A DNA stretch of 36,902 nucleotides from Lentisphaerota bacterium (GTDB lineage: Bacteria > Verrucomicrobiota > Kiritimatiellia > PWTM01): positions 1 through 36,902 of the forward strand of contig VGWF01000036.1 of NCBI GenBank assembly GCA_016873715.1, written 5' to 3'. The notes under the pieces were generated by a model that searched no databases, had not been told where the DNA came from, and worked only from the letters and a program-made list of their open reading frames with translations. This document shows, in pieces, positions 17,937-27,434 of this stretch. A program made the position numbers and the translations under genes. Within the stretch, counting starts at the first letter, position 1. Each line of letters opens with the position of its first letter.

Positions 17937-18512
17937 TCAGGCGCCGGCGGCGGCGGGCCGGGCCTGCAGTTCGGCGCGCAGGTGCTGGTAGGCGGTCTGG
18001 TAGCGCGCGCGATCGGCCTCGTCGAACTCGCCCTGGTTCTTCTGCTGCAGCGTGTGGTAGGGCACGTGCATCAGGCGGAGCATCTGCCAGAGGGCGGCGA
18101 GCACCTCGACGGACAGCCGCTGGTAGTTCATGGCCGCCAGGGCGATCTCGTCGGGGCCGATGCCGAGGAACTTGGTCAGGAACGAGTGTTCGTCGGATTC
18201 CAGGTGCGCCTGGTGGTCGAGAAAGGCGTCGGCGGAGCGGACGTTGGCCAGGATCAGGTTGAGGAAGTGGGTGAAGTCCTGCTCGACCGGCGAGACCGCG
18301 CCCCCGCGCGCGGCCAGTTCGGCCTCGCCGAGGGCCTTCTCGAGAAGGTGGATCACGCGGCTGACGTGGTCGATCCGCGCCCCGGTGCCCATGTGCTCGA
18401 GCGGCATGATCAGCATCTCGGTGGCCCGTTCGACACACGCGTCGCGCCGGGCGACGTGCACCGGGCGGTTCCGTCGTGCGATCCCGCGGACCCTGGGGTG
18501 GGTGTCGTTCAC
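17937..18512 (-). CDS. Helical protein of unknown function, divergent to the hydrogenase-like sensor
   Basis: 191 residues from GTG 18512, preceded by GGGGGC; no better ATG is in frame until MLIMPLEHMG near residue 34. The protein is almost all helical and rich in His, Glu and Leu (ACVERATEMLIMPLEHMG, FLDHQAHLESDEH, LMHVPYHTLQQK), with no signal or membrane segment. I do not recognise the family. The repeated His/Glu pairs within helices would allow a metal-binding helical bundle, but there is no clear hemerythrin pattern. It is divergent from the sensor kinase, with 139 bp between the two starts, so shared control is possible. Confidence 0.65.
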   Translation of the reverse strand: MNDTHPRVRGIARRNRPVHVARRDACVERATEMLIMPLEHMGTGARIDHVSRVIHLLEKALGEAELAARGGAVSPVEQDFTHFLNLILANVRSADAFLDHQAHLESDEHSFLTKFLGIGPDEIALAAMNYQRLSVEVLAALWQMLRLMHVPYHTLQQKNQGEFDEADRARYQTAYQHLRAELQARPAAAGA

Positions 18513-18651: not shown

Positions 18652-20655
18652 ATGAAGGCCGATGCCCAGCTGATCAAGACGATCGGGGAGCGCTGCCGGG
18701 TGTGCTACACCTGCGTGCGCGACTGCCCGGCCAAGGCGATCCGCATCGCCGGAGGCCAGGCGCAGGTCGTGCCCGAGCGGTGCATCGGCTGCGGCAACTG
18801 CTACCGCGTGTGCAGCCAGAGCGCGAAGCAGATCTACGACTCCCGCGACGACGTCCGCGCGATCCTCGACTCCGGCGCCCGCGTCGCGGCGATCGTCGCG
18901 CCGAGTTTCGCGGCCGAGTTCGCCGAGGTCGACCATCGCGACGTGGCGACGATGATCCGGAAGCTCGGGTTCTCGCTCGTGTGCGAGGTTGCGTTCGGCG
19001 CCGACCTCGTCGCCCGGGAGTACCGCCGCCTCCTGGAGACATCGAACGGGAAGCGCTACATCGCCACGACGTGTCCGGCGGTCGTGGCCTACGTCGAGAA
19101 GTACCACGCCGACCTCGTGCCCAGCCTCGCGCCGATCGCCTCGCCGATGATCGCCGAGGCGCGCGCTCTCCGGGCCCTGCACGGGAACGAACTCAAGATC
19201 GTCTTCATCGGCCCCTGCCTCGCCAAGAAGGTCGAGGGCGACGGCAGCGCGACGGGGGAGGGGGAGATCGACGCGGTCCTCACGTTCGTCGAACTGCGCC
19301 TGATGCTCGCCGCCGCCGGGATCGTGCCGGCGGGCGATGCCTCGGGCGACTTCGATCCGCCGCATCCGGGCCTCGGCGCCCTCTTCCCGATCAGCCGCGG
19401 CATGCTGCAGGCCGCGAGCCTCGTCGAGGACCTGCTCAACACCGACGTCGTCGCCGCCGACGGCCGCCCGGGGTTCATGCAGGCGCTCAACGACTTCGCC
19501 GCCGGCGTGCTCGATGCCAAGCTGCTCGAGATCCTCTGCTGCAACGGCTGCGTGATGGGCTCCGGGATGAGCGTCGACACCCCGCTCTTCCGCCGCCGCG
19601 CCGCCGTCAGCCAGTACGTCCGCCGCCGCGTCGCCGGGGGCGACCCCGCGGCCTGCGAGGCCTCGGTCGAACGCTTCAAGGACCTCGACCTCGCCGTCCG
19701 CTTCGCCCCCCAGGAACTGCCGCCCGGCGCCGCGCCGCCGAAGGACCTGCAGTCGATCATGTCGCTGATGGGCAAGATGAACCCGGAGGACGAGCTCAAC
19801 TGCGGCGCCTGCGGTTATCCCACCTGCAGGGACCATGCGGCGGCCATCTACAGCGGACTCGCCGAGAGCGAGATGTGCCTCCCGTACACGATCGACCGCC
19901 TCCGGGAATCGCTCAAGGACCTCAGCGAGTCGAACGCCGAACTGGCGACCACCCGGCAGGCCCTGATCAGCGCCGAGAAGCTCGCCAGCATGGGCCAGCT
20001 CGCCGCCGGAATCGCGCACGAGATCAACAACCCGCTCGGCGTCATCCTGCTCTACGCGAAGCTGCTGCTCCAGGACACGCCGTCCACCAGCGAGCAGCAT
20101 ACCGACGTCTCGTTGATCGCCGAGCAGGCCGAGCGCTGCAAGAAGATCGTGACCGGCCTGCTCAACTTCGCGCGGAAGAACAAGGTCATCCGCCAGCCCG
20201 TCGGCGTGACCGGCCTGATCGACCGCTGCCGCCGGGCCGTGCTGATCCCCGACAACGTTCGCGTCTACGTCCGCCACGAGATGAAGGACGCGGTCGCCGA
20301 GATCGACGAGGACCAGGTCATCCAGGTGCTGACGAACCTCATCGTCAACGCCTGCGAGGCCATGGGCTCCGGCGGCGACCTCACGATCGTGACGTCCGAC
20401 ACGCCGGACGAGGTCCGGGTGGCCGTCCAGGACACCGGCTGCGGCATCGCGCCGCAGAATATCGCGAAGATCTACGAGCCGTTCTTCACCACGAAGCAGA
20501 TCGGCAAGGGCACCGGGCTCGGGCTCGCCGTGACCTACGGCATCGTCAAGATGCACCGCGGCCGCATCGACGTCGTGTCCAACGCCGATCCCGCGAAGGG
20601 ACCGACGGGCACGACGTTCACCGTCACGCTGCCGCGCCGGTCGGAGGAGGGGTGA
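18652..20655 (+). CDS. [FeFe]-hydrogenase-like sensor histidine kinase (putative sensory hydrogenase)
   Basis: 667-residue cytoplasmic protein. Two 4Fe-4S motifs come first (Cys15/18/21/25 and Cys44/47/50/54). An [FeFe]-hydrogenase C-terminal-like domain follows (about 75-330). All four Cys expected to hold the cubane of the H-cluster are present: Cys141 (TTCPA, replacing TSCCPGW), Cys189 (GPCLAKK), Cys296 and Cys300 (LCCNGC). A further FeS motif lies at Cys384/387/392/409 (CGACGYPTC). Then comes a coiled-coil linker, a HisKA domain with His456 (AHEINNPL) and an ATPase domain (NLIVNACEAM, DTGCGIAP, GTGLGLA). This resembles the putatively sensory, kinase-linked group C [FeFe] hydrogenases, which are thought to sense H2 or redox state. 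No maturases are in the window. GGAGG precedes ATG 18652. The next gene starts on the last base of the stop. Confidence 0.88.
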   Translation: MKADAQLIKTIGERCRVCYTCVRDCPAKAIRIAGGQAQVVPERCIGCGNCYRVCSQSAKQIYDSRDDVRAILDSGARVAAIVAPSFAAEFAEVDHRDVATMIRKLGFSLVCEVAFGADLVAREYRRLLETSNGKRYIATTCPAVVAYVEKYHADLVPSLAPIASPMIAEARALRALHGNELKIVFIGPCLAKKVEGDGSATGEGEIDAVLTFVELRLMLAAAGIVPAGDASGDFDPPHPGLGALFPISRGMLQAASLVEDLLNTDVVAADGRPGFMQALNDFAAGVLDAKLLEILCCNGCVMGSGMSVDTPLFRRRAAVSQYVRRRVAGGDPAACEASVERFKDLDLAVRFAPQELPPGAAPPKDLQSIMSLMGKMNPEDELNCGACGYPTCRDHAAAIYSGLAESEMCLPYTIDRLRESLKDLSESNAELATTRQALISAEKLASMGQLAAGIAHEINNPLGVILLYAKLLLQDTPSTSEQHTDVSLIAEQAERCKKIVTGLLNFARKNKVIRQPVGVTGLIDRCRRAVLIPDNVRVYVRHEMKDAVAEIDEDQVIQVLTNLIVNACEAMGSGGDLTIVTSDTPDEVRVAVQDTGCGIAPQNIAKIYEPFFTTKQIGKGTGLGLAVTYGIVKMHRGRIDVVSNADPAKGPTGTTFTVTLPRRSEEG

Positions 20656-21806
20656 TGGAGAGCCTCCGCGTCCTGATCGTCGACGACGAGCCCGGCATGC
20701 GCATGGGCGCGGTCCGCGTCCTGAAGCGCCACACCGTCCGCCTGCCGCACATCGACAGCGAGGTCTCGTTCGAGTGCGACGTCGCCGAAAGCATCGCCGA
20801 GGCGCGCGGGAAGCTCGCGGCGGGAGGATTCGACCTCCTGCTGCTCGACTACAAGCTGCCCGACGGGACCGGGCTCGAACTGCTCCGCGAGATCCAGGAG
20901 CAGCGGATGGACCTGCTGGTGATCATGATCACCGCGTTCGCGTCGCTCGAGGTGGCCGTCAGCGCGACCCGCAACGGCGCGTTCGACTTCCTCTCCAAGC
21001 CCTTCGCCCCCGAGGAACTCGAGAGCATCGTCACCAAGGCGAGCCGCTCGCTGGTCGTCGAACGCGCCGCCCGCCGGATGGCCGAGGAGAAGCGCAAGAT
21101 GCGCCTGCGCTTCCTCTCGGTGCTCGCGCACGAGTTGAAGGCGCCGCTCGGGTCGGTCGAGGGGAACCTGAAGCTGCTCGACCAGAAGATCATGGGGCCG
21201 GACCTGGCGAAATATGAAGTCCAGGTCAAGCGCGCCCTGGCCCGCATCGAGGGCATGCGGAAGCTGATCTTCGACCTTCTGGACCTCACCCGCATCGAGG
21301 CCGGCGAGCGGAAGCGCGAGGTGAAGTCCGTCGATCTCGTCGATGTCGCCCGCACCGCGATCGAGACGATGACGCCCGACGCCGAGGCGCGGCGCATCGC
21401 GATCCGCCTGCAGGCGCCGGAGAGGCTGGACCTCGTCGCGGACCGCAGCGAGATGGAGATCGTCTTCAACAACCTCGTCAGCAATGCCGTGAAGTACAAT
21501 CGCGACGGCGGCTCCGTCGACGTGCGCCTCGCCCGCGGCGACGCCGGCGTCACCCTCGAGGTGCAGGACACCGGCATCGGGATGTCGCAGGCGGAGGCGG
21601 CCCGGCTGTTCGGCGAGTTCGTCCGCATCAAGAACGACAAGACGCGCAACATCTCCGGCAGCGGCCTCGGCCTCTCGACCGTCAGGAAGCTCGCCACCCT
21701 CTACGGCGGCGATGTCGTCGTCCGCAGCGAGCCCGATGTCGGCACCACGTTCACCGTCACCGTCACCGACCAGCCCCTCCCCGCCGCGGCCCCCGCGGCG
21801 ACGTGA
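20655..21806 (+). CDS. Response regulator receiver-histidine kinase protein
   Basis: 383 residues. It begins with a receiver domain: acidic pair in LIVDDEPGM, phospho-acceptor Asp65 (LLLLDYKLPDG), Thr93 and Lys115 (SKPF). A helical linker leads to a HisKA domain with His159 (SVLAHELKAPLGS) and a HATPase domain with NNLVSNAVKYN, DTGIGM and GSGLGLS. There is no DNA-binding output domain. Receiver-first kinases of this kind act as relays: the upstream sensor could phosphorylate Asp65 and so gate the second kinase. The start ATG shares its A with the stop of the sensor gene and follows GGAGGAGGGG, so both are made from one message. The final output regulator is not in the window. A hairpin (21782-21800) lies in the last codons. 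Confidence 0.92.
   Translation: MESLRVLIVDDEPGMRMGAVRVLKRHTVRLPHIDSEVSFECDVAESIAEARGKLAAGGFDLLLLDYKLPDGTGLELLREIQEQRMDLLVIMITAFASLEVAVSATRNGAFDFLSKPFAPEELESIVTKASRSLVVERAARRMAEEKRKMRLRFLSVLAHELKAPLGSVEGNLKLLDQKIMGPDLAKYEVQVKRALARIEGMRKLIFDLLDLTRIEAGERKREVKSVDLVDVARTAIETMTPDAEARRIAIRLQAPERLDLVADRSEMEIVFNNLVSNAVKYNRDGGSVDVRLARGDAGVTLEVQDTGIGMSQAEAARLFGEFVRIKNDKTRNISGSGLGLSTVRKLATLYGGDVVVRSEPDVGTTFTVTVTDQPLPAAAPAAT
21782..21800. other. GC-rich hairpin in the last codons of the receiver-kinase gene
   Basis: CGCCGCGG (21782-21789) pairs with CCGCGGCG (21793-21800) around CCC. It sits within the Ala/Pro-coding tail just before the stop. No T-run follows. It may be chance in GC-rich DNA or part of transcript end formation. 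Confidence 0.3.
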
Positions 21807-26094: not shown

Positions 26095-27434
26095 GTTCCT
26101 CGCTGTTTTCAGTGGCTGAGAACGGCCGGTGAGGGCAGTTTGCCGGCGACGAAGTAGAGCATGGTGATCATGTTTCGGACGCTTCGATACCCGCGGGCCT
26201 TGCGGCGGACGGCGGAGAAGACGCTGTTGAGCCCCTCCATGAAAGCGTTGGTCACGCCTTGATCCCAGTGCGCCAGGATACCTGCGATATGCGACTCGAT
26301 CATGTCCGCGACGCGGGCCATGTGATGAAGGAGCCAGCGGCTCGACTTCCGAGCCTCCCGGCGGACCCATCGGCACCATTCTCCGAAGCGCTTGGCCGCC
26401 GCCTCCGCCGTGTCGAGGGTGTAGATCTCCTGGAGCGCCAAGCGCATCTGGTAGGCCCGGCCCGTCTGGAGCATGTCCTGATCGATCTGTCGCAGACGGG
26501 TGCGCTGCTTCCTGCTGAGGTTCTCGGGGTTCTTCAGCCACAGCCAGCGGCCCTTGGCCAGCGCCGTCCGGGCCGCCTCCGTGCCGCTTTGCACTTCGGT
26601 CCGGCGGACGAGATCGACGGTTTGGTTCGCGTGGGCGATCACGTGAATCTTGTCGTAGATGATTCGGGCGTTCCGACAGTAATCGCGGACCCCCTTCGCG
26701 TACGCCTTGCTCATGTCCATCGAGACGTTCGTCAACGCGTGCGGATGGCCGTTGTGCGCCGCCAGGGCCGTCACGAACTCCGCCCACGTCTCGCTGTCCT
26801 TCCCGGGGGTCGCAAACAGCACCGCCTTCTTCACAAGATCCGCGAACACCGTCAGGTATCGATGCCCCTTCGCCCGGGCCATCTCGTCGACGCCCACGCA
26901 GGTCACCTCGGACATATCGACGGCCGCGTACGCTTCCTCGACGTACGCCTGGGCCACCCGCCACATCCGGGTGTCTTGCTCGCCCAGGATCTCGGCCGCC
27001 TTCTTCACGGGCATCTCCCGCATCAGGGTCAGCGCAAAGGCCTCGAACTCCTTCGTGAAGTGCTTCGCCCTACCTTCCCACGGCGGCGTCACGCGCCACA
27101 CCTTGCCGCACGTCGGGCACCGGCCCCGAGGAAGGTCGCAGACGATCTCCGCTTCCTTGTTGAACACGTTCAAATGTCGCCACCGAAGCCCCCGAATGTG
27201 GTCGTGGCAGACCACCCCGCCGCTGCCGTCGTGGGGGCAACGCTCCGTCTCCCAGAGCTTCGGCGTCTCCCGCACATGAAGCTCCAGAACCTTCTTCGCC
27301 TCGTCGAACGTCGCCCGCTCAACCGCCCACGCCTCACCCAGTCCCAACAGCTCGCCAAACAGCCTCTCCGGTGTCGTCATGCCATCGAAACTGCCCGAAA
27401 CCTCTCCCGCTGGCCACTGGAATTAGCGAGGAAC
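26095..27434 (-). mobile_element. ISL3-type insertion sequence
   Basis: A 1.34-kb element bounded by imperfect inverted repeats. The left end (26095-26116) and the reverse complement of the right end (27413-27434) both begin GTTCCTCGCT and end CAGTGGC; 19 of 22 positions agree. One intact transposase gene fills it. I see no clear 8-bp target duplication next to these ends, so the exact tips may differ by a few bases or the insertion may be old. The element lies between the esterase gene and the end of the glycosidase operon and breaks neither. Confidence 0.8.
26109..27380 (-). CDS. ISL3-family transposase
   Basis: 423 residues, complete. An N-terminal zinc-finger-like part (Cys48, Cys58, Cys88 and Cys91; CPTCGKVWRV) binds the ends. 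The DDE catalytic residues are Asp165 (VGVDEMA), Asp222 (SMDMSKAY) and Glu382 (AFMEGLNS, the usual ISL3 N-x-x-x-E-x-x-N arrangement). VFNKEAEIVCDLPRGRCPTCG matches the ISL3 zinc-ribbon region. ATG 27380 is the obvious start. The TGA stop (26109-26111) lies inside the left terminal inverted repeat, so element and gene ends are fused. With an unbroken frame and both ends present, the element may still be active. Confidence 0.93.
   Translation of the reverse strand: MTTPERLFGELLGLGEAWAVERATFDEAKKVLELHVRETPKLWETERCPHDGSGGVVCHDHIRGLRWRHLNVFNKEAEIVCDLPRGRCPTCGKVWRVTPPWEGRAKHFTKEFEAFALTLMREMPVKKAAEILGEQDTRMWRVAQAYVEEAYAAVDMSEVTCVGVDEMARAKGHRYLTVFADLVKKAVLFATPGKDSETWAEFVTALAAHNGHPHALTNVSMDMSKAYAKGVRDYCRNARIIYDKIHVIAHANQTVDLVRRTEVQSGTEAARTALAKGRWLWLKNPENLSRKQRTRLRQIDQDMLQTGRAYQMRLALQEIYTLDTAEAAAKRFGEWCRWVRREARKSSRWLLHHMARVADMIESHIAGILAHWDQGVTNAFMEGLNSVFSAVRRKARGYRSVRNMITMLYFVAGKLPSPAVLSH

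Follow-up and report, generated by a model that had tools for sequence, protein, structure and literature searches.

A pair of overlapping genes on a contig of a Lentisphaerota bacterium (VGWF01000036.1; the window, 36,902 nucleotides, is a whole contig, and the assembly comprises 5.1 Mb in 289 contigs and is 97.6% complete) encodes two histidine kinases, HydS-HK and REC-HK. The pair is intact and conserved and, judging from its place in the operons of relatives, is probably an H2 or redox sensor. A sequence-only reading had described an [FeFe]-hydrogenase sensor kinase followed by a receiver-kinase, with a sensor histidine in the first protein and an aspartate and a second histidine in the next. 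This layout is a conserved unit: REC-HK is encoded downstream of HydS-HK in 63 of the 68 loci in which at least 2.5 kb could be inspected on that side (this minimum applies to all flank counts below), which rules out chance adjacency of the two genes. The pair normally resides in the HydABC-HydEFG operon, in most cases accompanied by a single-domain receiver (REC). We think it fairly likely that the two kinases form a relay that senses H2 or redox state and serves hydrogen metabolism.

Anatomy and conservation of the two kinases

HydS-HK starts with a Fer4 pair whose eight cysteines lie in residues 15-54 (Cys 15, 18, 21, 25, 44, 47, 50 and 54), continues with a hydrogenase H-domain in which C141, C189, C297 and C300 are the cubane ligands, and ends with a further iron-sulfur (FeS) motif and a complete histidine kinase. 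The Fer4-type, Fe_hyd_lg_C, PF04060, HisKA and HATPase_c matches all exceed their Pfam cut-offs, and a Pfam scan found no PAS domain, the C-terminal cluster being fused straight to HisKA. The frames of the two genes share one base in TGATG (stop 20653-20655, start 20655-20657). Pfam recognises Response_reg, HisKA (residues 150-217) and HATPase (263-371) in REC-HK and no other domain, so that this protein has the layout of the LvrB class, REC-DHp-CA only, with Asp and His intact. The open reading frame (ORF) and Pfam checks thus reproduced exactly the coordinates, the domain content of both proteins, the co-translated arrangement without an output domain, and the phospho-acceptors His456, Asp65 and His159 of the sequence-only reading (Table 1).

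Residue conservation was counted over 91 HydS-HK sequences and, for REC-HK, over the 76 (receiver) and 74 (H159) sequences that reach the site. The eight ferredoxin cysteines, the four cubane cysteines, the four C-terminal cysteines and His456/Glu457 are invariant in all 91, as are A83, P84, S85, S164, P165, G187 and K192 of the [2Fe] pocket. The receiver residues D10, D11 and D65 are found in 76/76 sequences and H159 in 74/74. Retention of every ligand in 91 of 91 relatives is well beyond chance.

Structure models agree with this anatomy. The AlphaFold model of HydS-HK has a predicted local distance difference test score (pLDDT) of 78, with low confidence at residues 427-460, and places two helices (410-427 and 436-458, also of low confidence) around the junction of the cluster and the kinase; its Foldseek matches are the hydrogenases of D. 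desulfuricans, CpI and HydABC and the kinase ZraS. In the model of REC-HK (pLDDT 85), a single helix (119-176) carries α5 of the receiver on into the DHp helix. LvrB chains make up the six best Protein Data Bank (PDB) matches of this model; the alignments span about 400 columns, and the likeness is one of fold and domain order and not of rigid superposition (template modelling score 0.36).

Table 1. Features of the HydS-HK/REC-HK gene pair (positions in the window)
Feature	Position	Strand	Evidence
HydS-HK, [FeFe]-hydrogenase-type sensor histidine kinase, 667 amino acids (P0001)	18652..20655	+	ORF, Pfam
Two N-terminal [4Fe-4S] ferredoxin motifs, residues 12-57	18685..18822	+	Pfam Fer4; Cys in 91/91 relatives
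H-domain, residues 77-303	18880..19560	+	PF02906 Fe_hyd_lg_C, E 1.1e-41; conservation; AlphaFold/Foldseek
L3 motif with the cubane ligands, C297-x-G-C300 (CxxxC minus one residue)	19540..19551	+	Sequence comparison
C-terminal Cx2Cx4Cx16C [4Fe-4S] motif, residues 382-411	19795..19884	+	PF04060; 91/91
Short helical linker where a PAS domain would sit, residues 412-446	19885..19989	+	No PAS match; model helices
ZraS/NtrB-like kinase core	19990..20640	+	HisKA 447-509, HATPase_c 552-663; ZraS best PDB match
HydS-HK phospho-acceptor His456	20017-20019	+	
REC-HK, receiver-gated histidine kinase, 383 amino acids (P0002)	20655..21806	+	ORF, Pfam
Receiver domain of REC-HK, residues 6-126	20670..21032	+	PF00072, E 5.8e-23
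REC-HK phospho-acceptor Asp65	20847-20849	+	D65 in 76/76
DHp and ATPase domains of REC-HK	21102..21767	+	PF00512, PF02518
REC-HK His159	21129-21131	+	H159 in 74/74

Operon context and candidate receivers

Among 388 genomes of the phylum, 16 (this one included) hold a close HydS-HK relative with a kinase-length frame and 52-77% identity, below which there is a gap down to sensory-type hydrogenases of at most 41% identity, with frames mostly of 570-600 amino acids. REC-HK follows in 14 of the 15 other relatives, sometimes after one small gene, and the fifteenth ends at a contig edge. A second scan of named genomes added 80 loci from about 20 phyla, the best of 581 confirmed candidates; the family thus extends beyond this sample. 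After removal of duplicates, 90 loci were compared. HydA lies directly upstream of HydS-HK in 65 of 80 loci, and a small single-domain REC is present in 55 of the 68. The most frequent gene order is Rex-HydC-HydB-HydA-HydS-sREC-RK (sREC, small REC; RK, REC-HK), and in many loci HydE, HydG and HydF come next, in an order that differs between loci; such arrangements span many phyla. A second kinase gated by an aspartate, which had been taken for an unusual partner, turns out to be the regular one (63/68), and receiver-gated kinases are a described class with a precedent in LvrA-LvrB.

Two proteins with Fe_hyd_lg_C are encoded in the assembly, HydS-HK and a HydA with the canonical TSCCP, MPC and ACRGGC motifs. 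The HydA gene stands after HydC- and HydB-like genes on contig C71, with Rex transcribed away from them; HydG and HydF (contig C73) and HydE (C31) each score above the curated cut-off. The search for maturases and a catalytic hydrogenase that the sequence-only reading had called for therefore succeeded, and the H-cluster can be built in this organism; what that reading regarded as evidence against H2 sensing, a lack of maturases together with loss of H-cluster residues in homologues, is not what was found, the ligands being kept in 91/91. Also on C71, between the HydC- and HydB-type genes, lies a 211-amino-acid HATPase_c protein without a HisKA match (L013:3041-3676), and on C73 a small protein like the TM1266 hydrogenase-system regulator, recognised by eye (L014:4258-4533), is encoded near HydF/HydG and near a pyruvate:ferredoxin oxidoreductase-like gene.

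In the family of this genome the pair stands apart from HydABC. From the gene orders, it appears to be a hydrogenase regulatory module split from its operon. It might instead have decayed locally or been repurposed, so that, having left the HydABC operon, it now serves a process other than hydrogenase regulation. This would suit a window in which there is no hydrogenase gene and the neighbours are ribonucleotide reductase, radical SAM proteins and glycan-degradation genes, as well as the recurrence of the same detached pair in five family relatives (the sixth ends at a contig edge). We consider this improbable, as every family member has undamaged frames and functional residues, and the REC type of the [NiFe] hydrogenase operon is retained in all seven family genomes.

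When the remaining ORFs of the loci were clustered, no conserved DNA-binding output emerged save Rex, which has no receiver; the clusters obtained were a further family of single-domain RECs, present in 21 loci, along with aspartase-like and lineage-specific genes. An ortholog of the small REC was not recovered from the host genome, where the best match (37%) belongs to a different REC subfamily and is encoded behind hox genes on contig C47. There, HoxEF-like, HoxU, HoxY and HoxH, a maturation protease and the single-domain REC form one run (L149:4905-10469) in which the REC start overlaps the protease stop. Of the 388 phylum genomes, 14 have a REC of this type, and ten of these 14 belong to the 16 that encode the sensor kinase (Fisher p 4e-13, with no correction for kinship, seven of the genomes being one family); in L105 the same type directly follows HydF. 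The C47 REC is thus possibly a target of the relay. The same hox-protease-REC arrangement was also seen in L061 and several phylum mates.

Upstream of the pair, a divergent frame without a Pfam match (17937-18416, minus strand) probably has its true start near 18416, which leaves about 235 bp of intergenic DNA; a scan for sigma-70 promoters and terminators at the pair found none and is uninformative at the host G+C content. Elsewhere in the window, on the downstream side of the pair, an ISL3-family transposase (26109-27380, minus strand) lies amid genes for carbohydrate degradation. A lysine-aminomutase-like radical SAM gene (1500-2804) contains nine in-frame copies of the 7-bp repeat AGCCAAC (1973-2035) just past its CxxxCxxC motif, and similar peptide runs are encoded on other contigs of the genome.

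The H-domain and its shortened L3 loop

HydS-HK is not a group A catalytic [FeFe]-hydrogenase. It scores 79.5 bits against the group A model TIGR02512 (NCBIfam; cut-off 405.95), and its TTCP, GPC and CNGC motifs do not match TSCCP, MPC and CxGGC of group A; it also falls below the NCBIfam cut-off for group B1 (170 of 450 bits). It does display the traits of group C sensory enzymes, namely the four cubane ligands, the Cx2Cx4Cx16C motif, the loss of Cys299 and an altered Met353. With no PAS domain found by Pfam, it falls outside the PAS subtype M2f but may still belong to the wider group C, of which a kinase-bearing C3 type is published (PMC11406978). In a tree that was built without TmHydS and the HydDB C1, C2 and C3 references, group A (support 100/100), a sensory-type clade with CxxxC spacing (97/87) and the HydS-HK clade (96/95) are separate; the group letter of HydS-HK hence rests on its features and on the published C3 assignment of kinase-bearing relatives.

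A Bacteroidota branch within the HydS-HK clade has no kinase H-box. Because these hydrogenases branch inside the kinase clade, the tree suggests that the kinase was lost, with a phosphatase as the output. In the upstream parts of the Bacteroidota loci L127, L128, L132 and L134-L137, a second sensory hydrogenase without the H-box is encoded on the opposite strand, and in several of them a PP2C/SpoIIE-like phosphatase gene, recognised by eye, adjoins it.

The cubane cysteines of the L3 loop are spaced CxxC in the HydS-HK clade and CxxxC in group A and the other sensory clade; two members of the CxxC clade (L054 and L126) have CxxxC (CDGAC and CKGGC, respectively). The position before the first L3 cysteine is occupied by C, A, S, F or L; the extra cysteine before C297 in this HydS-HK is therefore not the conserved ligand. 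In the open-licence literature searched, we found no description of such a one-residue L3 deletion.

The pocket residues were equated with positions of CpI by motif alignment and from what is established for that enzyme. By this measure, the proton-relay position C299 is T140 in HydS-HK and is Cys in none of the 91 sequences, M353 is G187 and Gly in all 91, and M497 is Leu in 90/91. These replacements and the shortened L3 loop are what might be expected of an H-domain that makes no H-cluster and belongs to a general FeS redox- or O2-sensing kinase operating with [4Fe-4S] clusters only. This seems distinctly unlikely to us, considering (i) the invariance of A83-P84-S85, S164-P165 and K192 in 91/91 sequences, for which it is difficult to account if there is no [2Fe] subcluster, (ii) the presence of maturases in the genome, their genes being part of the same operon in many relatives, and (iii) the occurrence of changes at C299 and M353 as a normal feature of the active TmHydS and TamHydS (PMC8163306, PMC10055695).

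A proposed relay and its known counterparts

We propose the following model for signalling by the pair. HydEFG would install the H-cluster in HydS-HK. Either turnover of H2 or the redox state of the H-cluster with its FeS chain would alter the C-terminal [4Fe-4S] domain. With no PAS domain in between, this domain adjoins the DHp helix directly, and its change would set the autophosphorylation of His456. The phosphoryl group would then pass to Asp65 of REC-HK, for which LvrA-LvrB is the precedent. Phosphorylation of Asp65 would close the coiled coil of the REC-to-DHp helix and turn on His159, which would phosphorylate a separate receiver. Candidates are the single-domain RECs of hydrogenase operons, i.e. 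the small REC of the module and here possibly the C47 REC, and the end effect would probably be a tuning of the expression or activity of [FeFe] and [NiFe] hydrogenases.

Covariation was assessed as mutual information against random columns in eight tests on about 60-75 sequences. The DHp specificity columns of HydS exceeded random columns when paired both with α1 of the REC-HK receiver (p 0.03-0.06) and with α1 and β5-α5 of the small REC (p 0.01-0.04), whereas no mutual information above random was detected between the REC-HK DHp and the small REC. This is a hint from sequence that the sensor kinase contacts both receivers, and the single-domain receiver of the module may be a further target of it. 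Such a pattern would also be expected of a branched system in which HydS-HK phosphorylates the small REC and REC-HK in parallel, REC-HK acting mainly as a phosphatase or on an unrelated receiver. The frequency of the small REC in the loci and its covariation with the HydS DHp, which is at least as good as that of the REC-HK receiver, speak for this arrangement, and LvrA-LvrB itself has been termed a branched pathway (PMC5863495). We nevertheless hold it to be unlikely; the covariation is weak, and the family of this genome has REC-HK and no small REC at the locus, which makes the pair the minimal conserved unit there.

Several observations weigh against the proposed model. The L3 loop is one residue short, which bears on H-cluster geometry; the top covarying pairs are not enriched at the REC-HK interface, the covariation is weak over the eight tests, and neither distance correlation nor mutual information decides between the two receivers. 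In this family the pair is separated from HydABC and the local small REC is absent, and with 36 receiver domains in the host genome the choice of targets is wide. Furthermore, the C-terminal cluster of the group D enzyme TamHydS gave no response to H2 (PMC13104023), which speaks against a signal consisting of simple electron transfer to this cluster.

More tentatively, the relay might be generalised: a widespread H2-sensing phosphorelay of HydS kinase, single-domain REC and REC-gated kinase could control bifurcating [FeFe]-hydrogenase operons in about 20 phyla, with the H-cluster in a CxxC L3 loop and PAS-free coupling of the C-terminal cluster to the kinase. If true, this would account for the way in which many uncultured anaerobes adjust their hydrogenase levels to H2. 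Sensing of H2 by [FeFe] hydrogenases has long been proposed with its signalling path undemonstrated, and the characterised enzymes TmHydS and TamHydS carry no fused kinase. Here one locus encodes the sensor, its kinase and the kinase that regularly comes next, which makes phosphotransfer under H2 directly assayable with soluble proteins. The CxxC loop is itself a naturally occurring variant of the H-cluster cradle.

Parts of this system are already published: BfuT is a sensory hydrogenase that bears a kinase and is encoded next to HydABC, and LvrB is a receiver-gated kinase. The constant association of sensor, small REC and REC-HK is one of which we found no mention in the open-licence literature searched. 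HydDB lists a putative kinase-linked group C (PMC5037454). BfuT, of HydDB group C3 with a histidine kinase domain, occurs in the sub-type V BfuABC clusters of Hydrogenedentota, and the type is also known from Caldithrix and Bacteroidota (PMC11406978). Like the HydS-HK relatives, it is encoded beside a group A3 bifurcating hydrogenase, and the HydS-HK clade, with its Calditrichota, Hydrogenedentota and Bacteroidota members, overlaps the BfuT hosts. The main text of PMC11406978, however, does not contain 'response regulator', 'receiver' or 'Rex', and we did not find the REC-HK partner or the CxxC loop described there; in addition, the pair of this genome's family lies apart from BfuABC.

TmHydS (group C, PMC10055695) shares with HydS-HK the H-domain, two N-terminal clusters, the C-terminal Cx2Cx4Cx16C motif, the loss of C299 and Gly at M353, but has a PAS domain after the C-terminal cluster, where HydS-HK has the kinase at once, and Ser in place of Leu at M497. 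TamHydS (group D, PMC8163306, PMC13104023) has the same cluster layout without PAS and Leu at M497, and its gene is located upstream of a bifurcating hydrogenase and beside a kinase-like ATPase gene; unlike HydS-HK, it has no fused kinase and carries Ser, not Gly, at M353.

The closest counterpart of the two-kinase arrangement is LvrA-LvrB of Leptospira, an operon that encodes a sensor kinase together with a REC-DHp-CA kinase lacking a DNA-binding domain. LvrA differs in sensing by PAS, in being itself a hybrid and in having no hydrogenase domain, and the LvrB partner LvrC is a REC-Bergerat anti-sigma factor, of which we found no conserved equivalent in the HydS-HK loci. LvrA phosphorylates the receiver Asp of LvrB and thereby raises LvrB autokinase activity (PMC5863495), and phosphorylation of the LvrB REC builds a coiled coil (PMC13269768). 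By analogy, the anatomy that the two systems share supports transfer from His456 to Asp65, and subsequent activation of His159, as the way in which the HydS-HK/REC-HK pair may work.

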